A stretch of DNA of 64,000 bases from a virus. The stretch's first letter is position 1. Every line of letters begins with the position of its first letter. Location of the stretch: positions 1 through 64,000 of IMG/VR virus record IMGVR_UViG_3300027708_000032; one strand, given 5' to 3'. The notes beneath the pieces were generated by a model. The model saw nothing but the letters and a program-made list of their open reading frames with translations. It did not search any database and was not told the DNA's origin. Made by a program: the position numbers and the translations under genes. This document shows, piece by piece, positions 285 to 45,648 of this stretch.

Positions 285-1223
285 TTAATTAAAGTCTGCT
301 GTTATATCTACCCAACCATCAGCAACTATCCATTTCTTAAATGAACTTATAGTAATATATGGTAGGTAACCATCGTCTACATTTATAAATATTCCACTAC
401 AGAAGAATACATCTTTACTAAGACCACCTATAGCTTCTATACCTGTAGGTCCTGTTAAGAATGTTTCACCAGCAGCTCTTATTGTTTCTGTAGCAGCTAC
501 CATTCTTTCCCCTGTTGTTGTTAATGCAGCAAGAGCAGTTTTAGTAGGAAACAATATATCAGTTAAAAGAAACTGTTGGTAATCATTTTCTGGAAAAGCA
601 ACAGATGGAAATGTAGGAGCTGATCCATTTGCTAACACCCATGTAACAGCTGCAAGTACAGCACCACATGAAGTGTTTTGTCCTGTCTGTCCTCTTCTAA
701 TTATAGAACCTACAGTACCATTACTAGATATACCAATATGTGGCATATTAAAAACAAATAAATGTCCTGTATCTGTAATGTGACTAGCATAAGCACCAAG
801 TCCAGTAATACCTGTATGAGGATAACCAGCTAAACCACCAGACATAAACGGTCCTAAAAAATTATTTAGTGATAAAGGATGTTGTCCTAAATTATCTACA
901 TTTAAAAAATTAGGAGCATTAACATCATCTGCACAAACTGATAAAGACATTAATGTATTATCAGGATTGTATCCTAAACCTTTTAAAAATCTTTTTATTT
1001 TTAAACCCATATCCTGAGCATATATTGCATTAGGATATACAGCATTAACTCTATCTGTATAAATGAATGGGTTATTATAATACTTGGCCTCATTCATCAC
1101 CTCTATCCAATCTCCAGTTTTTGGTGCCTTGTATGCAAATGTTAAAGAACCAGCTACTACAGCACCATCTGGTGTACGCAATACATAAGGTTTCTTGGGT
1201 TTGTTATTTCCGTTTCTAAACAT
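285..1223 (-). CDS. LCIB-type carbonic anhydrase-like protein
   Basis: A 312-residue protein that resembles the LCIB/LCIC family (limiting-CO2-inducible proteins, a zinc carbonic anhydrase group with a beta-CA-like fold). The expected landmarks appear in order: SVCADDVN with Cys97 and Asp99, then GGLAGYPHTGITGLGA, PHIGIS with His162, RRGQ (Arg176-177) and TSCGA with Cys186. Cys97, His162 and Cys186 would be the zinc ligands, and Asp99 with an Arg the catalytic dyad. The family normally hydrates CO2 to bicarbonate. No signal peptide is visible. The gene sits in the late operon after the capsid and between tiny basic proteins, so it could be a virion protein that reuses the fold or an enzyme made late in infection. 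The family call comes from motif memory and has not been checked by search. Confidence 0.68.
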   Translation of the reverse strand: MFRNGNNKPKKPYVLRTPDGAVVAGSLTFAYKAPKTGDWIEVMNEAKYYNNPFIYTDRVNAVYPNAIYAQDMGLKIKRFLKGLGYNPDNTLMSLSVCADDVNAPNFLNVDNLGQHPLSLNNFLGPFMSGGLAGYPHTGITGLGAYASHITDTGHLFVFNMPHIGISSNGTVGSIIRRGQTGQNTSCGAVLAAVTWVLANGSAPTFPSVAFPENDYQQFLLTDILFPTKTALAALTTTGERMVAATETIRAAGETFLTGPTGIEAIGGLSKDVFFCSGIFINVDDGYLPYITISSFKKWIVADGWVDITADFN

Positions 1224-1224
1224 T

Positions 1225-1461
1225 TTATTTCTTTTTATAGGGGTTATCTTTATGCCATTTCTTAGTAGCAGCTACACCTTGTTTAACAGTTTTAGCTTTA
1301 GCTTTTTCTGTAAGATCTATAGTATCCCATTTACCTTTATCTGTAGATGGATGGTTTACCATAATATGACCTTGTTTACCTTTACCTATTCCTGTTGCAC
1401 TAGTCTTTTTATATATAACATGCTTCTCACCACCAGCTGAAACTTTAACCTTCTTAGCCAT
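1225..1461 (-). CDS. Small Lys-rich late protein (78 aa)
   Basis: A very basic protein, starting MAKKVKVSAGGEKHV and ending in KDNPYKKK, with a Gly/Lys-rich middle. It lies 1 base upstream of the carbonic-anhydrase-like gene and is probably cotranslated with it. No known domain is recognised. Like its neighbours it may pack with DNA or decorate the virion, but only charge and context support that. Confidence 0.65.
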   Translation of the reverse strand: MAKKVKVSAGGEKHVIYKKTSATGIGKGKQGHIMVNHPSTDKGKWDTIDLTEKAKAKTVKQGVAATKKWHKDNPYKKK

Positions 1462-1781: not shown

Positions 1782-2798
1782 TTACATGTTCCAATACTGT
1801 TCTACCTTCTTAGTAAGATCCATAAGAATCTCTTCATTTAAAGGGTTCTTAAGATATTCCAATACATCTGTAGCTGTTCTTCCCATTAGTACGCTCTTCT
1901 CAATATGCCAAATAAAACCATCAGCTTTAGTGGCAATTAACTTATAATAGTTACTATCTTTTACAATAGCTCTAATCTTAAGTGTTTCCATATCAAGATT
2001 AACGGCATCCAAAAACTTCTGTCCTGTTCTGCGTTTATCTTTATCTACAGACTCTCCGTTAATAAATTTATCCATGTTATCATAGATAATATCATTAGGT
2101 GTAGATTTCTTGTACTGGGTGCTATTAACATCTAGCACTTTAGCTATATAGAATAACTTGTTTTGGTTCTTATCAAATAACTTCTGAAGTTCTGAAAGAG
2201 CTTTATTTCTAAGCTTCTTAACTTCTGTATTAAGAGATGCTGTCTCTTCTATTCTATCTAAATAGAATTTTGTAGGTGTAGGTTTACTACGAGCTTCTTC
2301 TAAAGATCTAGATACTAATGAAAAACCACCAGCTTCTATAGCATATAATCTAATAAGATCATATGGATCTTTTTCTGGATCTAAATGTAATGGAGCATTA
2401 CTACATCTAACTTTAATTTTATCCCAGAACTCTCCATTATCATGTCTAAGTAGTTTTATTTTATTCCAAAACTCTTTATCTTCTGGATCTACTACATTAC
2501 CTGCAAGTTCCTTTTCAAGCTGTGCTACTATAGTTCTAATCTGTTTAATCTTAGCTTCTTGCTCTTCTAAAGGAAGACTTTTAACTTCTGGAGCAAACTC
2601 GTTCAAGCCTGTCAAATATCTTTTTATTCCGTTAATCTCTAAACAAGCTATACTTTCTTCATGAAAAGCTCCGTCAAAAAGACTAAGTCCATACTTCTGA
2701 AGTCCCATGTTTTCTACAGCAGCATCAAAATAAGGACGAATAGCTATTGTTGACTTTTTGTTTTGTGGGTATTTCTCCACCATTACTAAGTTACTCAT
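1782..2798 (-). CDS. Conserved virion-module protein, unknown function
   Basis: A soluble, mixed alpha/beta protein of 338 residues with a Lys/Glu-rich helical region around residues 75-130 and 190-225. There is no signal peptide, membrane segment or recognised catalytic motif. It lies directly downstream of the capsid gene, separated by one tiny gene and a hairpin, which fits an auxiliary head or head-tail joining protein. Its start is preceded by an A-rich leader containing AAAAACCAAAC, an element also found before the scaffold gene. Confidence 0.65.
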   Translation of the reverse strand: MSNLVMVEKYPQNKKSTIAIRPYFDAAVENMGLQKYGLSLFDGAFHEESIACLEINGIKRYLTGLNEFAPEVKSLPLEEQEAKIKQIRTIVAQLEKELAGNVVDPEDKEFWNKIKLLRHDNGEFWDKIKVRCSNAPLHLDPEKDPYDLIRLYAIEAGGFSLVSRSLEEARSKPTPTKFYLDRIEETASLNTEVKKLRNKALSELQKLFDKNQNKLFYIAKVLDVNSTQYKKSTPNDIIYDNMDKFINGESVDKDKRRTGQKFLDAVNLDMETLKIRAIVKDSNYYKLIATKADGFIWHIEKSVLMGRTATDVLEYLKNPLNEEILMDLTKKVEQYWNM

Positions 2799-3208: not shown

Positions 3209-4828
3209 TTAGAATGAACCACCAGTAACTGGGTTTCTCATAACGATCTTCAACACTTTGGTTGGATCTTTAACCCAGATAGCAGGCATTGTTTGTGTCA
3301 TGAACACACGGTATCCATTAAAGTTTCCAGAAGACTGGAACCCTTGAGTTCTACCCATGTAATCCATAGTACCATTTTGATAGAACCACTTTAATTGATT
3401 ATCCCAAGATAACTTCAATAAGAAGATGTTATCGTTAGTATTATCAGTGATATCAAAAATGATAAAGTTGTAAGAAGATAATGGGAAACCATCAATGATT
3501 GGGTTCTCAATATCATTAGTGTGGATGTTATCAAACGCTGGGTTCAACACAAACTTAACGTTAGCCAAGAACGGAATAACGTAGCTAGTGTATGCAAATC
3601 CAAAGTTTAGATCCATGCCTTTACCAGTTACAGCTCCAAGCTCATGAGCATTAAGAACTAAACCAGAGTTAACTGCCTCTTTCTTAATAGCCTCGTTAAC
3701 AAGCTTCATACCACCCATACCTGTTTGAACAATCAAAGAACGGTTAGGCTCTGGTCCTTGGAACTCCACACGACCATTGAAGAAGTTAAAGATTTCAGAT
3801 TTAAACAAGTCTAAGTTAAATGAACCACGGTTGTAAATTCTCTTGTAAGAATTATCCAACTGCTTCCAAAGACCTACAGACAAACGGATATCATCTGGAC
3901 CATCTTGCTTAATACGTCCACCTTGTCCCCACATTAAGTAGGTCTCAATGTCATTAGCAATCTTAGTCAAGTGAGCTGCTTCTAAAGTAGTCAAGAATGA
4001 ACGTGACAACTGACCATTAGCATAAGCCTTCTTAACATAGTCTTTACCCATCTTCTCAGCCATTGTTTCCAAGTTGGTGATAGAAGGATCAAGAGTTTTG
4101 TCAAAGTTTCTCCACATTTCTACTACTGGTACAGTACCATCAGCTTTCATACCACCCTTCATCATCAAGTCAGCACGACTAGAGATAGAATAGTGTACGT
4201 GAGCTTCTGCTCCTCCTACATAGTTGTAGAACTCACGGAAACCAGCAGATACATTACCAATGTCAGAAAAACGCTCACCATACTCTCCACGAGCCGAACC
4301 TTTACGGAACAACTTGGTACCAGTAGTGATGTAAGCATTAGATAAAAACTTGTTGTTATCATTATTAACCAACTGAACAGTGTAGATGAAACCATCACCA
4401 GCTGGAATAACATCATCAGCAGTAACGTACATTTCCACACCATTGTACTTATCATAAGTGATGATATCACCATGACCAAAGTAACGTTTGTTAATCTTGA
4501 TCTTAAAAGTTTGACCGTCAATACCTTTTGTAGCATTGCCTGACTCAATATCTTCTAAGAAATAAGGAAGATCCTGAGCTACAGGAATCTGCCATTTGTA
4601 CTCTCCACGAGCGTTATCTACCATGATAACGTTCTTACCACCAAAAGATGACATTTGGTACAAAGGCATTTCTACTTTTTGTGCCATTGCCCAAAGATCC
4701 ACTGGACCTAAATCTGTAGGCTCAGCTGATTTAAGGAGGTTAGAAAGGTGGTAAGAGTCTACGTGCGAACTAGTCTGATAGTTATTATCACGCAGGAATA
4801 TACCATTGTTTAAAACTGGGGTTGCCAT
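3209..4828 (-). CDS. Major capsid protein (probable)
   Basis: A 539-residue soluble protein with the order terminase, portal, acidic scaffold-like protein, then this gene, which is where a phage capsid gene belongs. The sequence is rich in beta and Gly/Asn loops, with no signal peptide or membrane segment. Codon use is noticeably different from the small neighbouring genes (more C-ending codons such as AAC, GAC and TTC), as expected for a very highly expressed protein. It probably has the HK97 fold, as in other tailed phages, but the fold itself cannot be read from the sequence by eye. Virion mass spectrometry would settle it. Confidence 0.8.
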   Translation of the reverse strand: MATPVLNNGIFLRDNNYQTSSHVDSYHLSNLLKSAEPTDLGPVDLWAMAQKVEMPLYQMSSFGGKNVIMVDNARGEYKWQIPVAQDLPYFLEDIESGNATKGIDGQTFKIKINKRYFGHGDIITYDKYNGVEMYVTADDVIPAGDGFIYTVQLVNNDNNKFLSNAYITTGTKLFRKGSARGEYGERFSDIGNVSAGFREFYNYVGGAEAHVHYSISSRADLMMKGGMKADGTVPVVEMWRNFDKTLDPSITNLETMAEKMGKDYVKKAYANGQLSRSFLTTLEAAHLTKIANDIETYLMWGQGGRIKQDGPDDIRLSVGLWKQLDNSYKRIYNRGSFNLDLFKSEIFNFFNGRVEFQGPEPNRSLIVQTGMGGMKLVNEAIKKEAVNSGLVLNAHELGAVTGKGMDLNFGFAYTSYVIPFLANVKFVLNPAFDNIHTNDIENPIIDGFPLSSYNFIIFDITDNTNDNIFLLKLSWDNQLKWFYQNGTMDYMGRTQGFQSSGNFNGYRVFMTQTMPAIWVKDPTKVLKIVMRNPVTGGSF

Positions 4829-6216: not shown

Positions 6217-8967
6217 TTATTTCTTTTTTTCCGCTGGCTTCTTTACGTCATACTTATTTTTATTTTCTCTAGCAATCTGTAATTGCTTATCAGCTATTTC
6301 TTTTTGTGTCTGAAGTCTACGTTCTTCTACATTAAGCTTTTGCTGAGTCATCATGGTCTTATTAGTTTCCTGATCTCTTTTAAGATTCATTTGATCTTGG
6401 TGTTGTTGATCAGCTCTAATATTTTCTAAAGCATCCATATAGTCAGACTGCTTATTTTCATTAATATCTACAGTGGAACCATAGCCAGCTGCTTTAATTT
6501 GTGCTTCTTCTATCTTAGCATCTCTATCTTTCTGGTTTTCCTCAGCTTCAAACTGTTGAGCCATCTGCATTTGTTGTTGCTGAGCCTGAAGCTGTTCTTG
6601 TTGCATCTGCTGCTGTTGCTGCATTTCAGCTTGTTTCTGAGCCTGCATTTTTTCTTCAGACTTCTTAAGAACACCAGTAAGTTCAGCAATACTCTCAGAC
6701 TTAATAACATTACCAAGATCATATATAGAAGCACCCATTGTGTTATTCTGTATAGCCAATTGCTTTAGTTGTTCTAATATAGCTCTAGAATTAGTCTTAG
6801 TGGTGCAGAATATATTAAGATCTCTCATCAAAAGATCTGTACCATTCATCTGAAAGTTTACTTTTTCGTCTGTACTTGTAATATACTGAAGACGCACACT
6901 AGGTTTTGTAGAATGATAATACTGAGCCAAGTCAGTACGCATCTGATGTACGCGAGGCATTAGGTTGTCACTATGCTGTACAAAGTATTGTTCTGTCTGA
7001 GCATAAGAAGCTGTCATAGCTTGTTCTATACCAGTGGCTGTTTGTTGTTGAGCAATAGGCTGACCCATACGTTGTTGATTAAGTCCTATTACAGCAAAAG
7101 CTTCATTCTTAAAATAGTTAGCCAACTGTATTCTAGACATTAAACGTTGTGTCTGTTCTAGATTTAACACTTGATAGTGTTGGAAAGATAGAGGATTTTC
7201 AGTGTTAGTAATAGTGGTATCCAATGGTAACATCTGAAAGTTCTTCATGGCTACATATGCCTTAGATAGATTGTTCTTTCCCCAATCTTCTCCTAATGAG
7301 TGACGTGGTAGGGCATTCTGATCTAACATGATAACAGTACCTAATTCATCTACTAAGATGTCAGCTATCTGATTATTTACAATATTATAACCAATCTGAA
7401 ATGGTTTCATTAAATCTACTAAACTTACTGATCTAGTATTTCTATCTCCAAATATACATCCCTCTACAGGAAGTTTACATCCATATATAGTGGAATCTCC
7501 TTTAAACTGAAAAGGTACACGTCCTGGTTTACCACCTTGTAAACCAAGATATATAGGATTGATACCTCCTGGATTATTCATACCCCAGAATGCAGGTCTG
7601 TTAGGACCAATTTTAATTCCACCCCAGGTTTCATTAATCCATATCCAATCTATATGCTCACCAAACATAAGATTGTCTTTTGTTTTCTGTTTGTAAACTA
7701 CAGTGTTATACTGAGGAGCATCTGTTACTTTATAAGTTTCATCTACAATATCTTGTACAAGATCTCCGTCTTGAGTTATTTTAGTAAGATGGCCCACCTT
7801 TCTTTGACTCTTCCAATAAATTGTAGAAACACGTAACATGTATGACTTACCAAAATCTTGAAGATCTTCAGAGTCTGATAAAATCCATTGTACAATATCT
7901 CCGAACTGAGATCCAGCATCGTACAAAGAAGTAAACTGTCTATAAGCCAACGAAGGCATTTGTGTGTTCCATTCATGAGATCTAGTTGGGTCATAGTATG
8001 TACCATCATTTTGGTATCCTTGTATTGCATATCCTGCAGATCTAGCTGGATATATAGCTTCTAAAGCTTCCAACTGATCTTGGTTCATCATCCAACCAAA
8101 CTTATCTATAACATCTGATATAGACATCATATCCATTTTACCCACCCAGTTACCCTGAGATACATAACGAATGTCTGGAGATTTATGATAAAATGTAAGT
8201 AGAGGATTCCAAAGTTCCACCTCATAATCATCTTCTTTCATATCAAAATGCCAGAACTCTCTGTCTGTAATAAGCATATCTCTAAATGCTCTTTCCTCTA
8301 ACTCTTGCATTTTAAATCTTTCCTCATCTACAGTTTTTTGATGAGCAGCCCACTCTTCTATCATAGAACGATAATCTTTTTTAAAGAATTGTTCTAATTC
8401 TGGAAGTTGTTTTATAGCATCAGGAGACATAGCTTTTTGAGCTTCTTCTGATTTAATATCTTGACCTTGATCAATAAGCTGTATTCCTATTTTTCTTTCT
8501 GCATCTTTAACTAAAATGTCTTCTAACATCTTACGTTTCTCTTCCAACATCTCATTATAAGAAGTGTCATCAGTAGCTCTAAACATAATTTTAGAAGTAC
8601 GTTTAGAAAACTCATTTGTAAGAACATTAACTACACTTGGAATAATAGGATAGAACTTAAGCTCAAATGCTGATACGTCTTCTTTTGTAAGAGTGTCAAT
8701 AAGATCTGCCATTTCATTATCTTCCTCTACAATATAATCCTGTTTGTCTATAATACCTTTAGCTAGTTTATAGTTCTTCATCAAACGTCTAGCGTTTCTT
8801 CTTAACTGTTTCATTCCCTGAAACTCTAACCAATCAAGATTCCAAGCTCTCCACTCTTCATCTTTTTCTTTTTCTGATACAAACTGAAAAGGCTGTATAA
8901 GAGTACCCATCTTGTTGTACTCCACCTTGGCTCCTTTCTTAAGTTGTAGGGCGTTATATATCTGCAT
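6217..8967 (-). CDS. Portal protein
   Basis: A 916-residue protein encoded directly downstream of the large terminase, as portals usually are. It is mostly helical with a beta-rich middle (about 240-530). A long Gln-rich helix near residues 765-815 (runs such as QQQQQMQQEQLQAQQQQ) and a Lys/Glu-rich C-terminal tail follow. Portals with extended Gln-rich C-termini that form the barrel are familiar in crAss-like and other podophage-type heads. The protein would form the dodecameric ring through which DNA is packaged and ejected. About 100 bases without a gene separate it from the scaffold gene. Confidence 0.8.
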   Translation of the reverse strand: MQIYNALQLKKGAKVEYNKMGTLIQPFQFVSEKEKDEEWRAWNLDWLEFQGMKQLRRNARRLMKNYKLAKGIIDKQDYIVEEDNEMADLIDTLTKEDVSAFELKFYPIIPSVVNVLTNEFSKRTSKIMFRATDDTSYNEMLEEKRKMLEDILVKDAERKIGIQLIDQGQDIKSEEAQKAMSPDAIKQLPELEQFFKKDYRSMIEEWAAHQKTVDEERFKMQELEERAFRDMLITDREFWHFDMKEDDYEVELWNPLLTFYHKSPDIRYVSQGNWVGKMDMMSISDVIDKFGWMMNQDQLEALEAIYPARSAGYAIQGYQNDGTYYDPTRSHEWNTQMPSLAYRQFTSLYDAGSQFGDIVQWILSDSEDLQDFGKSYMLRVSTIYWKSQRKVGHLTKITQDGDLVQDIVDETYKVTDAPQYNTVVYKQKTKDNLMFGEHIDWIWINETWGGIKIGPNRPAFWGMNNPGGINPIYLGLQGGKPGRVPFQFKGDSTIYGCKLPVEGCIFGDRNTRSVSLVDLMKPFQIGYNIVNNQIADILVDELGTVIMLDQNALPRHSLGEDWGKNNLSKAYVAMKNFQMLPLDTTITNTENPLSFQHYQVLNLEQTQRLMSRIQLANYFKNEAFAVIGLNQQRMGQPIAQQQTATGIEQAMTASYAQTEQYFVQHSDNLMPRVHQMRTDLAQYYHSTKPSVRLQYITSTDEKVNFQMNGTDLLMRDLNIFCTTKTNSRAILEQLKQLAIQNNTMGASIYDLGNVIKSESIAELTGVLKKSEEKMQAQKQAEMQQQQQMQQEQLQAQQQQMQMAQQFEAEENQKDRDAKIEEAQIKAAGYGSTVDINENKQSDYMDALENIRADQQHQDQMNLKRDQETNKTMMTQQKLNVEERRLQTQKEIADKQLQIARENKNKYDVKKPAEKKK

Positions 8968-9087: not shown

Positions 9088-11292
9088 TTATCTCATGTTT
9101 TTAAATGCGTTACGAGAAGGTCTCATAAGACCATTACTTTTGGTAGAACTACCAATATGCCTAAATGGGCTATAGTTTAATTTACTAAATTTTTGGGAGT
9201 TAACCAAATTATCCTTCTTAACTTCTATACGTTTAGCTAGTCCTCTATTAGATTGTTGTACCTTGGCAAATGCTATAAGAGAACAGAATGCCACAAGTCT
9301 ATCCACGTTTAGTCCATCTCTGTATGCCTGCATCTCTTTAAGTAACATAACATCAGGTATACGCTGTACGCCATATATAGTTTTAACTATAGTTCCATCT
9401 GGTAAAGTTTCAGTGTCAAGCTCTTCTTGTAAAAACTCAATACCATATGATAGAATAGTACCCTTAAATAATGTACCTACGTTCTTCCAACCATACTGCT
9501 GAAATACATTTCTGTTTGCTCCTATGTCCTTGAGAAACAATATCATATCTTTTGGTACCAAATATTTCTGTCTCTTTCTAGATATCATGTATTGTATAAA
9601 CAAAGCTACGTTATTCTCCACTATAGTCCAGGCATTATACCATTCTATGAGTAGCTCTAGTCTTTCATGTGTTTTATTAATATCATCAAACCTACCACAC
9701 CATGAAGCAACTATAGCATCACGTTCTATTGTATTCTTCACCTTACCATCCCCATCATCCTGTATAATCTCCACTGGGTTTTTATATACGTATATAGAAC
9801 ATAATGAGTCTGATGTAGTAGTCTTACCCTCGCCTACGGGATCCACAGAAGCATAGTACATACCAAACGTAGGATCTTTGTGTGGTCTTTCATATACACA
9901 TATCACACCTTCTTTATCTTCTGTCTTCTTAGATATAGGAAATTCCATAATAGGAATCTTTCTAGATGGTTTGTCTATTATTTTACCCTCAGCATTTCTA
10001 CTAAGTTCTAAATATTCTACAGGATATTCTTTCTCTGCTATCCTTTGCATCTGTTTAGAAACAAGATGTGGAGGAAATACACTCACCTTTCTAGTAGCAA
10101 AAGCTTCTTCTATAGTACGTGGATGCTGAGATATGGTGAGCTGATACGCAGCTGGGTCCATATTCTTTTTAGCTTTCTCAAACTCTTCATCAAGAGCAGT
10201 TAAAGCTTCTTCCACTTTAGAGTTACCATAGTTGTCTATATATGGTGGCATAGACCACTGCTCAGGAATAAATAGTCCTGTCACACCAACACTACCATCT
10301 TTGTCTAACAGATTAGATGGCACACCATAAAAACCATTCTCTTCTGGCTGTAGTATATATTCTTTAAGAGGTTCACACTGATCAAGATCACCCACAGAAC
10401 CAGCAGCTATAAACTGTCCTGTAATCATATGACCAGATTTAAGAGCTGGTTTCATAAACCCATAAGTGTCATTCATCTTAGGAGCAATACCACCCTCTTC
10501 ATGAAAGAAATATGTTACGGGACCACCAACACCATTAGTTGGATCTTTTTCAAATGAATAAGATGATATGTTACTCTTAAGTCCTCTATATGTATCACGA
10601 TTATTTATTCTCACTTTAATACGCTGCATCCAAGCTCCCACCTTATCTGGTTCACTAGGTCTATACCAAGCAGTGTGTTCATTTAAAAAGTTCTTATATT
10701 CATCTAAGAACTTCCAGGATCCTTTCTCATTAATATAATCTTTCAAACTAGCTCCTATCTTTAACACGGCACCTTCTTCAAACCAATACTGGTTTATAAG
10801 CTTACCCATATGAAAATAAGAAGAAGCTATCTGACGTTTCTTTAAAATTACAGCATGCTTCCAATGTAGTTCTGCCAAGTGTTCATATAGAGCCATGTGA
10901 TATTGTGCATCTCTCACCTTAGCAAAGTCAAACCTCTTTTCTTCCTTATCATAAATAGGAAGAAAGTTAAGCCACATGTAATAGTCTCTACTAAGAAACC
11001 ATGACTTATCATTGTTCTTAATAATTACACCCTTACGACATTTATTCTTTTGATCATCCCAATAAGCTATAAAGTCTTTAGTTTTTACAGGAGCATCACA
11101 GTAATACTTTTGTTTCTGAAACTTTCTAGCCTCAGCATTAAATATTAAAGAACTTTCGTCAAACTCATACTTCCCTGGTTCTTTAAATATAGATAATAGA
11201 AAGTCTCTGAACTCTTCCCTTGTTTGAAACTCAGTAGTAGTCCAGAGACCATTCTCGTATGTAGGAACCTCTATAAAATTATTACTCAACAT
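9088..11292 (-). CDS. terL: Terminase large subunit (ATPase/nuclease)
   Basis: A 734-residue DNA-packaging motor. The ATPase half shows a degenerate Walker A, KKRQIASS (151-158), and a Walker B with catalytic Glu, YFFHEE (261-266). The C-terminal RNase H-like nuclease begins at YYASVDPVGEG with Asp484, followed by a VENN segment and a late Asp in LNVDRLVAF. The protein binds the portal, cuts concatemeric DNA and pumps it into the head. It overlaps nothing and starts at the base after the glycosyltransferase stop, so the two are probably coupled. No small terminase subunit is recognisable nearby; one of the short upstream genes may fill that role. Confidence 0.88.
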   Translation of the reverse strand: MLSNNFIEVPTYENGLWTTTEFQTREEFRDFLLSIFKEPGKYEFDESSLIFNAEARKFQKQKYYCDAPVKTKDFIAYWDDQKNKCRKGVIIKNNDKSWFLSRDYYMWLNFLPIYDKEEKRFDFAKVRDAQYHMALYEHLAELHWKHAVILKKRQIASSYFHMGKLINQYWFEEGAVLKIGASLKDYINEKGSWKFLDEYKNFLNEHTAWYRPSEPDKVGAWMQRIKVRINNRDTYRGLKSNISSYSFEKDPTNGVGGPVTYFFHEEGGIAPKMNDTYGFMKPALKSGHMITGQFIAAGSVGDLDQCEPLKEYILQPEENGFYGVPSNLLDKDGSVGVTGLFIPEQWSMPPYIDNYGNSKVEEALTALDEEFEKAKKNMDPAAYQLTISQHPRTIEEAFATRKVSVFPPHLVSKQMQRIAEKEYPVEYLELSRNAEGKIIDKPSRKIPIMEFPISKKTEDKEGVICVYERPHKDPTFGMYYASVDPVGEGKTTTSDSLCSIYVYKNPVEIIQDDGDGKVKNTIERDAIVASWCGRFDDINKTHERLELLIEWYNAWTIVENNVALFIQYMISRKRQKYLVPKDMILFLKDIGANRNVFQQYGWKNVGTLFKGTILSYGIEFLQEELDTETLPDGTIVKTIYGVQRIPDVMLLKEMQAYRDGLNVDRLVAFCSLIAFAKVQQSNRGLAKRIEVKKDNLVNSQKFSKLNYSPFRHIGSSTKSNGLMRPSRNAFKNMR

Positions 11293-42351: not shown

Positions 42352-43023
42352 TTATTTTAAGTCAAACAGAATTATTTCAGATTCTGCTGTAGGTATTATT
42401 TCTATTTTGTTTTCTTCTGTAAAACTTAGTCCATCTCCTTCTATTAACTTATAACCATTAATAGTTAGCTCACCTGATATAACGTATAGATAATAGCTCC
42501 GTGCATTATCTATTTCAAACGTATACTCTTCTGTAAAAATACCAGCTAGAAATCTAGCATCTTGTTTTATTGGTAGTTTCTCAGTGATGTTACAGAACTT
42601 GTTTAGTTTATCTTCTCTAGTAAACTGATGCCACTCATGTATTGGTTCAGTGTCTAATACATTAGGTCTTACCCACAGCTGTAAATACCTATTAGGTGTA
42701 TCTGATGCATTACCTTCTGTATGTTTTATACCACTACCAGCACTCATTCTTTGTACAGCACCAGCAGGTATATCTAAAACAGCACCATGACTATCTGTAT
42801 GTCTACATACACCCTCTACAACATACCCAAAGATTTCCATGTTCTTGTGTTCATGTATTGGAACATGACCACCTGGTTGCACCCTGTCATCATTAATAGT
42901 TTGCAGATCACTAAAGTGAATATACTTTCTATCAAAGTATCCAGGAAAGCTAAATGTTCTAAAAGAACTAATCCAGCTAGCTCTTGGGTTTCCTCTAGTA
43001 TGTGCAGGTCTATGCTTTATCAT
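42352..43023 (-). CDS. Pirin-family cupin protein
   Basis: A 223-residue bicupin with the pirin ligand set: His57 and His59 in IHEHKNMEIF, His101 and Glu103 in GIKHTEGN, and FGYVVEGVCRHTDSHG between them. Pirins bind Fe or another metal; some show quercetinase activity, others are redox-sensitive regulators. The C-terminal cupin (INGYKLIEGDGLSF) is more degenerate. The gene overlaps the endolysin by four bases, so it is a late gene. A phage pirin is unusual and was probably acquired from a host. Confidence 0.8.
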   Translation of the reverse strand: MIKHRPAHTRGNPRASWISSFRTFSFPGYFDRKYIHFSDLQTINDDRVQPGGHVPIHEHKNMEIFGYVVEGVCRHTDSHGAVLDIPAGAVQRMSAGSGIKHTEGNASDTPNRYLQLWVRPNVLDTEPIHEWHQFTREDKLNKFCNITEKLPIKQDARFLAGIFTEEYTFEIDNARSYYLYVISGELTINGYKLIEGDGLSFTEENKIEIIPTAESEIILFDLK

Positions 43024-43547: not shown

Positions 43548-43948
43548 TTCTTATTTAATTTTTTAATTTCTTTTAAGATCTTACTATGATCTTCTATAGC
43601 TTTTCTATCAAGCTTTAAATCTTCTTCAAGTTTCATAAGAAGAACTAATACAGCTTGTAATAACTCTTTAGAATCTTCATCAACCTCAAGATCTTTTTTC
43701 ATATGTTCTCTATCTTTCTCAGCTTGTCTATTACCTGACATAAGAATCATAGGTGTAGCATAAGCTGCTTGTGCTGATAGAAACAAGTTCATTAATATAA
43801 AAGGATATGGATCAAAATCTACAACATTGTCTAAATTAATCAGCATCCATACTATAAGTATCACTGATTGTAAAATTATAAATGTCCAGCTTCCTACAAA
43901 GCTAGCTATGTTGTCAGCTAGATTTATTCCAAATTCTTTTAGTTTCAT
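43544..43948 (-). CDS. DUF1003 membrane protein, holin candidate
   Basis: A 134-residue DUF1003 protein: two membrane segments (WTFIILQSVILIVWMLI and YPFILMNLFLSAQAAYA) and the family signature MILMSGNRQAEKDR, followed by a charged coiled coil. It overlaps the endolysin start by four bases. In bacteria the role of DUF1003 is not settled. In this position, coupled to the endolysin, it could act as the holin. That is inferred from context. Confidence 0.75.
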   Translation of the reverse strand: MKLKEFGINLADNIASFVGSWTFIILQSVILIVWMLINLDNVVDFDPYPFILMNLFLSAQAAYATPMILMSGNRQAEKDREHMKKDLEVDEDSKELLQAVLVLLMKLEEDLKLDRKAIEDHSKILKEIKKLNKK

Positions 43949-45648
43949 TGTACAATAAATTTAACCACTGTACGTTTGTTATTTATAATATAATAGAGAG
44001 CATACACACCACGCTCAAGATTTAAACTAAAGTCTTTGCTGAGTACACCATCCACACTTTTAATTCTTTCACTATACACTGTTCTACCAGTCATATCAAT
44101 AATGTTTACATTAGCATATGCTGTCTTAGTGATGGTACTTTGTACATTAAGTGTAAAGTTTCCATTATTAGGAATAGGATAGAGAGCAACTAAGTCTTTT
44201 TGTAAATCTTCTACACCTATTCTTGTTCCAAATGCACAATTAATATGTGTAAGTGTTTTAGATATTGGTGTACTAAGTGTACCACATAATGTAGTGGCTT
44301 TAGCTGTTAAAGGACCACCTGTGTAACCAGTGTTAAACTGAAGTGTTACAACAGAACTATCTGCATTAGCATATGTAAATGTTGTATTAGCTGGTTTAGT
44401 CCATCTAAAAGCTACCCCCGGAGGAATTGATACATTTGGAACAGCAGAGATTACAGAATATGTAGCACTGTTACCAATACATCCATTCCAAAATCCTGTA
44501 GATGAAGACATATCTAAAGGTTTAGATGGTGCCACTGCTAAACTCTTAGCTGCACTAACTATATTACAAGCACTTTGACATTTAACTGTAATAGCTCCTG
44601 TACTAAAAGTAGAACCAAATCTTATAGTGACAGAAGAACTATCTGTGTTAGCAGCTGTAATTGTGCTACCTACAGGAACTGTCCATCTAAATACACTATT
44701 AGCCACTTGAGAAGAAGTTGGAATAGCTGCACTTGTTGTATATGTAAATGTACTATTAGGACAAGGTGCTACAGAACCAACTATACTAACTGGAGCAGGA
44801 GGTAATGCTCTTGTAAAAGCTGATGACACTGTAGGAATACTTCCTGCATTATTACTTAATGTAAGATATACAGAACCTGCAGCTTTAATTGCAGCTGTAA
44901 TACTATTAGTACCTTGACCACTTGTTGCACTGATTATATAATTACCAGTACCTGATATACTCCAAGCATAATTAACACCACTTTCTACAGGAACAGAGAA
45001 TGTTCTTAAAGTGTCACATAGTCCAGAAACTGGAGTTTGTGTAATCACTTGTGTAGTTGGCACTGTAGCAGTTGGAGGAGGAGCTACATATTTAGTAGAA
45101 CTAAATGTTGTAGTGTATACATAATCCTGAGCTTCATTACCATTATTATTACCAGCCACTGCAGAAACATAAAACTTTACTTTACTTGGAGCTACACTTG
45201 GTGCATTCCATGTAAGTCCTGTGTATGTGTAGTTATTAGCCACTGTAGTAACAGCAGCATTAGCATGGCTTAATTCATATGTTGCACCACCAGCTGTTCC
45301 TTTAATAGAACTGTTAGCGTTAGTGCTAGTCCATGTACCAACAACAGTGTTAGTGGTTGTGTCTACAGCTTTAATAGCATATCCCCACACCTTTCTATCA
45401 GCTGTTCCATGAGCTATCTTAATACTAAAAGGGTAAGCTACACCTGCAGTGAATGTAGTAGGTAGGCCAGTGAGAGTGATGTTACCACCACCAGAGTTAA
45501 GACTATAGTCACCATGACAATTAGTACAGTTTCTTGTAGATCCTGTAGATGTTGGAGCCATAGTGTAACCTGTAGGACAGTTTGGATTGCTTAGTACAAA
45601 AGAAAAAGCAATAATAACAAAACTTAATAAGTACAATACTTTTTTCAT
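43945..45648 (-). CDS. Exported protein with CxxCH, PKD-like repeats and T9SS sorting domain
   Basis: A 567-residue protein with a signal peptide (to about residue 20). A CTNCH motif follows at 41-45 inside a choice-of-anchor-V/reelin-like domain (about 22-195), with GVAYPFSIKIAHGTADRKV. Then come three PKD-like beta-sandwich units (200-470) with NSTFTYTTSA- and GNSATYSV-type starts. The last 85 residues form a type-A T9SS sorting domain: LYPIPNNGNFTLNV, NVNIIDMTGRTV and a C-terminal YIINNKRTVVKFIVQ. In the host such proteins are carried across the outer membrane by T9SS. Here the gene is coupled to DUF1003 in a late phage block. Confidence 0.82.
   Translation of the reverse strand: MKKVLYLLSFVIIAFSFVLSNPNCPTGYTMAPTSTGSTRNCTNCHGDYSLNSGGGNITLTGLPTTFTAGVAYPFSIKIAHGTADRKVWGYAIKAVDTTTNTVVGTWTSTNANSSIKGTAGGATYELSHANAAVTTVANNYTYTGLTWNAPSVAPSKVKFYVSAVAGNNNGNEAQDYVYTTTFSSTKYVAPPPTATVPTTQVITQTPVSGLCDTLRTFSVPVESGVNYAWSISGTGNYIISATSGQGTNSITAAIKAAGSVYLTLSNNAGSIPTVSSAFTRALPPAPVSIVGSVAPCPNSTFTYTTSAAIPTSSQVANSVFRWTVPVGSTITAANTDSSSVTIRFGSTFSTGAITVKCQSACNIVSAAKSLAVAPSKPLDMSSSTGFWNGCIGNSATYSVISAVPNVSIPPGVAFRWTKPANTTFTYANADSSVVTLQFNTGYTGGPLTAKATTLCGTLSTPISKTLTHINCAFGTRIGVEDLQKDLVALYPIPNNGNFTLNVQSTITKTAYANVNIIDMTGRTVYSERIKSVDGVLSKDFSLNLERGVYALYYIINNKRTVVKFIVQ

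Follow-up and report, generated by a model that had tools for sequence, protein, structure and literature searches.

Most enzymes known from phage virions target the cell wall, the capsule or nucleic acids. Carbonic anhydrase genes are encoded by giant algal viruses (PMC13037468), and in the openly accessible literature (subscription papers were outside our search) viral carbonic anhydrases are reported only from giant viruses of eukaryotes. Within the LCIB-type family, the algal proteins LCIB and LCIC are cellular components of the CO2-concentrating machinery. LCIB and LCIC of Chlamydomonas possess the fold and the zinc motif, yet are inactive in vitro, for which a review names a disordered histidine and arginine as the cause (PMC5876011). 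Bacterial members of the family (LCIB_C_CA) are found in Balneolaceae, Chitinophagaceae, Planctomycetes and others as stand-alone cellular proteins of 230-270 amino acids. A structural precedent for attaching a protein head to a phage capsid comes from phicrAss001, where trimeric gp21 and dimeric gp29 head fibers are anchored by N-termini of 38 and 58 residues, respectively, that plug hexon pockets; its authors suggest that uncharacterized proteins may plug the capsid in the same way in other crassviruses (PMC10172136).

Here, we describe an LCIB-type carbonic anhydrase gene located in a 64,000-nucleotide stretch of viral DNA (positions 1 to 64,000 of IMG/VR record IMGVR_UViG_3300027708_000032), referred to as the window. 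The enzyme family is known. A phage clade of it with an invariant site, coupled repeatedly to late-protein segments of phages, appears to be new. Particles of the many uncultured bacterial viruses that encode LCIB proteins probably bear an enzyme of CO2/bicarbonate chemistry, a trait for which we found no earlier description.

The window encodes an LCIB-type carbonic anhydrase

To establish the identity of the window protein, we combined profile searches with structure prediction. LCIB_C_CA (PF18599) is the only Pfam family found on the 312 amino acid protein (E = 9.3e-40, residues 69-296), with a score of 136.7 bits against a curated cut-off of 25, a cut-off also passed by ten divergent viral members. 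phmmer searches against PDB sequences returned 6kfs (5e-24), 9vzj, 5b5y (PtLCIB4, 7e-18) and the Chlamydomonas LCIB/LCIC structures. Single-chain AlphaFold2 prediction based on an alignment of 59 natural sequences yielded a model with a pLDDT of 90.1 and a pTM of 0.83. In a Foldseek search of the PDB, LCIB entries ranked at the top, led by PtLCIB4 (5b5y, E = 2e-18, TM-score of 0.85 by target length), followed by many classical beta-carbonic anhydrases. The original prediction had proposed an LCIB-type carbonic anhydrase and named the Pfam profile and structure prediction as checks. Its proposal is borne out by both, as the profile match lies far beyond chance and the modeled fold is that of LCIB and beta-carbonic anhydrases and not an unrelated one. 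Together with the conservation of the active site, profile and fold confirm the protein as a member of the LCIB-type carbonic anhydrase family. A chance motif as the source of the match is ruled out by the E-values and by residue invariance.

The active site is invariant across viral LCIB proteins

We aligned 91 distinct viral proteins of at least 180 amino acids from IMG/VR stretches. Residues C97, D99, D100, H148, H162, R176 and C186 are kept in all of them, at pairwise identities as low as 31%. The window protein shares all site residues and the whole-domain fold with PtLCIB4 and algal LCIB/LCIC, which lack a virion segment, and the domain and site residues with bacterial LCIB_C_CA proteins. 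C97, H162 and C186 are predicted zinc ligands, assigned by alignment without observation of the metal. H162 lies at the end of a strand like the zinc-ligand histidine of beta-carbonic anhydrases, and C186-G187 begins a helix like their second cysteine, as judged by the secondary structure of the model. H148 was identified as the equivalent of PtLCIB4 His88 via the H88A entry 5b5z. From topology and published work (PMC5876011), we infer that H162 is a zinc ligand and H148 an active-site residue. All motifs listed in the original prediction are present in the protein (C97-x-D99, PHIG with H162, RRGQ with R176-R177 and TSCGA with C186); its choice of H162 as ligand is retained while the invariant H148 had been missed. 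Residue 98, following the first cysteine, is serine in about 90% of cases, as in PtLCIB4. The viral clade additionally possesses invariant residues of its own (D100, G113 and D283) and a loop around residues 106-118 that is absent from the algal proteins. Given that Chlamydomonas LCIB and LCIC are inactive despite their zinc motif, an intact site is no proof of catalysis.

The LCIB gene is an optional passenger of crAss-like late operons

Judged by the sequences of its terminase, portal and capsid proteins, the window virus is crAss-like but distant (about 25% identity), and formal placement in the Crassvirales is not implied. The record comprises 128,065 bases and is probably complete and circular because its ends overlap by about 120 identical bases. 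Across the join, the gene order is capsid, 338 amino acid protein, small Lys-rich genes, LCIB, small genes and a 232 amino acid conserved late protein. Terminase, portal, capsid and LCIB genes all lie on the same strand with the first three upstream, and the three genes directly upstream of LCIB and the one directly downstream are short and Lys-rich. The setting is thus as originally described, namely a late operon behind the capsid gene with tiny basic genes nearby. The features of the locus are listed in Table 1.

Table 1. Positions of LCIB, its predicted active-site codons and neighboring late genes in the window
Feature	Position	Strand	Evidence or remark
LCIB-type beta-carbonic anhydrase ORF, 312 aa, ATG start	285..1223	-	PF18599 match, AlphaFold2 model, Foldseek
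LCIB carbonic anhydrase domain, aa 57-311	291..1055	-	
Cys186 codon, predicted zinc ligand	666..668	-	invariant
Arg176 codon, predicted Asp99 partner	696..698	-	invariant
His162 codon, predicted zinc ligand	738..740	-	invariant
His148 codon (= PtLCIB4 His88), predicted active-site His	780..782	-	invariant; alignment with 5b5y and H88A mutant 5b5z
Asp99 codon, predicted catalytic dyad Asp	927..929	-	invariant
Cys97 codon, predicted zinc ligand	933..935	-	invariant in all 91 viral proteins and in every bacterial sequence that spans the position
N1 module, aa 1-50, putative virion anchor	1074..1223	-	heads about 19 non-LCIB ORFs; modeled as small beta domain
Small Lys-rich late protein	1225..1461	-	stop 1 base before LCIB start; beside LCIB in sister phages too, e.g. 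L034, L037
338-aa conserved late protein, possible capsid auxiliary protein	1782..2798	-	
Major capsid protein, crAss-like	3209..4828	-	PHROG major head protein E 4e-30; 27% over 99% to Leptolyngbya phage Lbo-JY46
Portal protein	6217..8967	-	PHROG portal E 3e-94
Terminase large subunit, crAss-like	9088..11292	-	PHROG terminase E 1e-66; about 25% over 85-90% to crassviruses

Whenever the capsid gene is in range on a crAss-like contig, LCIB follows the capsid and 338 amino acid protein genes, about 3-6 kb past the capsid, and precedes the 232 amino acid late gene wherever the latter is in range. The complete interval from capsid to late gene is available for 51 sister crAss-like phages and contains LCIB in only three, making LCIB an optional passenger and not an essential morphogenetic protein. 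The 51 intervals represent the closest capsid relatives, and 3/51 is consequently not an unbiased frequency. In sister phages, the same slot also holds homing endonucleases, a fiber-like protein and Lys-rich proteins. Homing-endonuclease-like genes are present in the interval of contigs L099, L127 and L149, which suggests an insertion hotspot. The 338 amino acid late protein has no detectable homology to gp36 or gp33 of crAss001.

Viral LCIB proteins form a single clade under purifying selection

Profile scans of IMG/VR initially identified 64 stretches and later at least 151 relatives, while scans of bacteria yielded 23 loci. In a quick tree whose exact outgroup is unsure, a long branch with SH-aLRT 99 separates the first set of 61 viral proteins, as one clade, from bacterial and algal LCIBs. 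The bacterial proteins (L009-L031) fall outside this clade and show 25-32% identity to the window protein in full-length alignment. Host contamination of the contigs is ruled out, as phage structural genes flank LCIB in many independent contigs and the viral proteins form one clade.

No match to the window protein was found by tblastn among INPHARED phages or in PLSDB, no LCIB family exists in PHROGs and BFVD structures contain no viral LCIB. The best BFVD hit is a carbonic anhydrase of Pandoravirus celtis (A0A4D6EJK2, E = 1.7e-3), which is only a weak fold match. Like giant algal viruses, Pandoravirus celtis possesses a virus-encoded carbonic anhydrase, but these viruses have eukaryotic hosts and no link to a virion segment has been reported. 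Together with the literature search, these results agree with the earlier statement that no phage member had been described. The lack of INPHARED and PLSDB matches also means that neither a cultured carrier nor published proteomics was available to draw on.

In pairs with dS under about 0.6, dN/dS is about 0.19-0.48, and jumbo-phage pairs show values of 0.07-0.16. At the sequence level, this shows purifying selection on phage LCIB genes. Two adjacent LCIB genes are found in seven contigs of T4-like, partly jumbo, phages (L049, L051, L053, L056, L057, L059 and L065). The second gene of each pair lacks an N-terminal segment and both copies keep the full site.

LCIB domains are coupled to different late-protein segments

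Carriers belong to at least two unlike groups, namely crAss-like phages, recognized by terminase and capsid homologues, and T4-like phages with Portal_T4, some of which are represented by contigs over 200 kb. At least eight different N-terminal segments are found fused to the LCIB domain; three of them recur on neighboring late genes of fiber-like, Thr-rich and RCC1/baseplate-like type. The segment of the window protein, N1 (about 50 amino acids, consensus LKxYxxxxxGxxVPGSLxLxxxKPxxGxWxEV), starts about 19 other ORFs without LCIB in related phage contigs, some of them Thr-rich (E = 1e-13 to 3e-18). The N2 form is present in five T4-like contigs, all of which carry an enzyme-less N2 gene directly upstream of LCIB, and in L076 N2 is also found on larger fiber-like genes. 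Where an N2 locus has both ends in range, it lies in the stretch bounded by the major head protein and head-tail adaptor genes. N3 is common to LCIB and to RCC1-repeat and other proteins with a C-terminal match to the baseplate wedge tail-fiber connector family. Two such N3-sharing proteins are encoded at L068:5970-8513 and L226:1105-2547, the former additionally carrying RCC1 repeats. The N5 member L233 directly follows the T4 portal gene near a tail sheath stabilizer. For N4a, N4c, N6 and the L049 form, no relatives without LCIB were found, although these were not sought in depth.

Architecture labels require 11 changes on the 91-member tree compared with a mean of 49 after shuffling, so each architecture is mostly inherited within its clade with few swaps between clades. 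Searches of phages with the N1 module and the N2 form gave no match. N1 also matched no PDB chain and showed no detectable similarity to phicrAss001 gp21 or gp29, which served as short single-sequence templates.

In addition to N-terminal fusion, the LCIB domain is found within a 776 amino acid protein of a T4-like lineage (L254 and L257, the same loci as L201 and L203). The outer parts of this protein belong to a protein of about 500 amino acids. Of 71 complete relatives, 69 carry no insert and have a short Ser-Gly...Thr-Gly turn at the insertion point. The LCIB domain is inserted in a loop of the approximately 500 amino acid protein. Over the C-terminal part, L254 shares 96% identity with L256, which has no insert. 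No Pfam, PHROGs or NCBIfam family beyond a marginal PHROG of unknown function and no PDB match were found for the approximately 500 amino acid protein, and its structure prediction (pLDDT of only 38.5) was not used. Its structural role is inferred from its surroundings in Portal_T4 phages and not demonstrated. The gene upstream of the 776 amino acid protein encodes 516 amino acids and is baseplate-hub-like by eye, a likeness not supported by any database searched. The protein with the loop-inserted LCIB domain may be a natural case of an enzyme displayed on a phage.

A carbonic anhydrase may be displayed on the phage particle

We lean slightly toward the window gene encoding an accessory LCIB-type beta-carbonic anhydrase displayed on the exterior of the phage particle. 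The C-terminal residues (ca. 255) would form the zinc enzyme, with Cys97, His162 and Cys186 holding the metal and the Asp99-Arg176 pair and His148 completing the site. Solved relatives of the domain are dimers, and by analogy with solved LCIBs the phage enzyme would likewise act as a dimer. The N-terminal residues (ca. 50, N1) may serve as a plug docking this dimer on the virion, similar to the N-termini of phicrAss001 head fibers. In both cases, and in phage groups that are related, a C-terminal head follows a short N-terminal segment (about 40-58 residues in phicrAss001), but the heads of gp21 and gp29 are not enzymes. As N1 has no detectable similarity to gp21, gp29 or PDB entries, the plug role rests on architecture alone. 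Once displayed, the enzyme could speed the interconversion of CO2 and water with bicarbonate and a proton within a biofilm or where diffusion is limiting close to the host surface, and local pH or CO2 would be altered during adsorption. That the protein enters virions, that it is catalytically active and what purpose it serves are all inferred, and the absence of virion proteomics or a cultured host for any carrier counts against display.

An unlikely but still credible explanation is a beta-carbonic anhydrase that is made late and stays in the host cell, tuning CO2/bicarbonate or pH for phage synthesis, with the place in the operon setting timing only. The intact active site, the optional nature of the gene, the late expression expected from its position and the lack of a signal peptide visible in the sequence all speak for such an enzyme. 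A soluble form would however need neither at least eight N-terminal segments, some of them common to fiber-like neighbors, nor insertion into a late structural-region protein. Bacterial relatives of 230-270 amino acids lack an N-terminal segment of this kind.

It is doubtful that the fold merely represents a displayed binding module, such as an adhesin or decoration, in which zinc is structural and no turnover takes place. The architecture does resemble receptor-binding modules swapped between fibers, and the inactivity of algal LCIB/LCIC in vitro despite the zinc motif (PMC5876011) provides a precedent. Yet invariance in 91/91 proteins extends beyond the zinc ligands to D99, H148 and R176, and host-range selection usually diversifies a binding surface. 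A displayed zinc hydrolase of the beta-carbonic anhydrase fold acting on another small substrate, for example COS or CS2 as in known hydrolases of this fold, draws support from the long branch, the clade-own invariant D100, G113 and D283 and the loop at about 106-118, but is highly improbable with every shared carbonic anhydrase site residue kept and no positive evidence for another substrate.

The original prediction had posed enzyme and co-opted virion part as alternatives. Enzymatic function and a place on the virion are instead favored together, because the site is invariant in 91/91 proteins and LCIB domains are joined time and again to N-terminal segments common to late or fiber-like genes, with one case of insertion in a late structural-region protein. 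Optional presence in late operons, swapping of N-terminal segments and insertion into a late structural-region protein are directly observed. Whether these observations extend to a general principle is evenly balanced in our judgment: carbonic anhydrase would then be displayed recurrently on the virions of tailed phages, a single LCIB clade would have spread among crAss-like and T4-like phages, jumbo phages included, and become attached to different late-protein segments, and particles would change CO2, bicarbonate or pH at the surface of the cell about to be infected. A small-molecule carbon/pH enzyme that two large phage groups have preserved intact and transferred between late-protein segments would represent a new role for carbonic anhydrases, and would raise the question of whether local CO2 or pH can limit phage adsorption or genome entry.

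Other genes of the window virus

The same late operon encodes a DUF5856/ferritin-like (Dps-like) protein outside the window (G000:C1:126333-126794, minus strand, corresponding to L007:2333-2794), and in many carrier contigs a relative of it is found within 1-3 kb of LCIB. One 5424 amino acid ORF (G000:C1:67232-83506, minus strand), likewise located outside the window, is typical of the giant virion proteins of crAss-like phages. Within the window, a secreted-looking protein of 567 amino acids (43945-45648, minus strand) carries a C-terminal type IX secretion sorting domain (Por_Secre_tail, E = 8e-7), which suggests that the host is a member of the Bacteroidota and that the phage encodes secreted proteins. 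A Pirin/quercetinase-like cupin protein is encoded nearby at 42352-43023 on the minus strand (Pirin, E = 3e-23).
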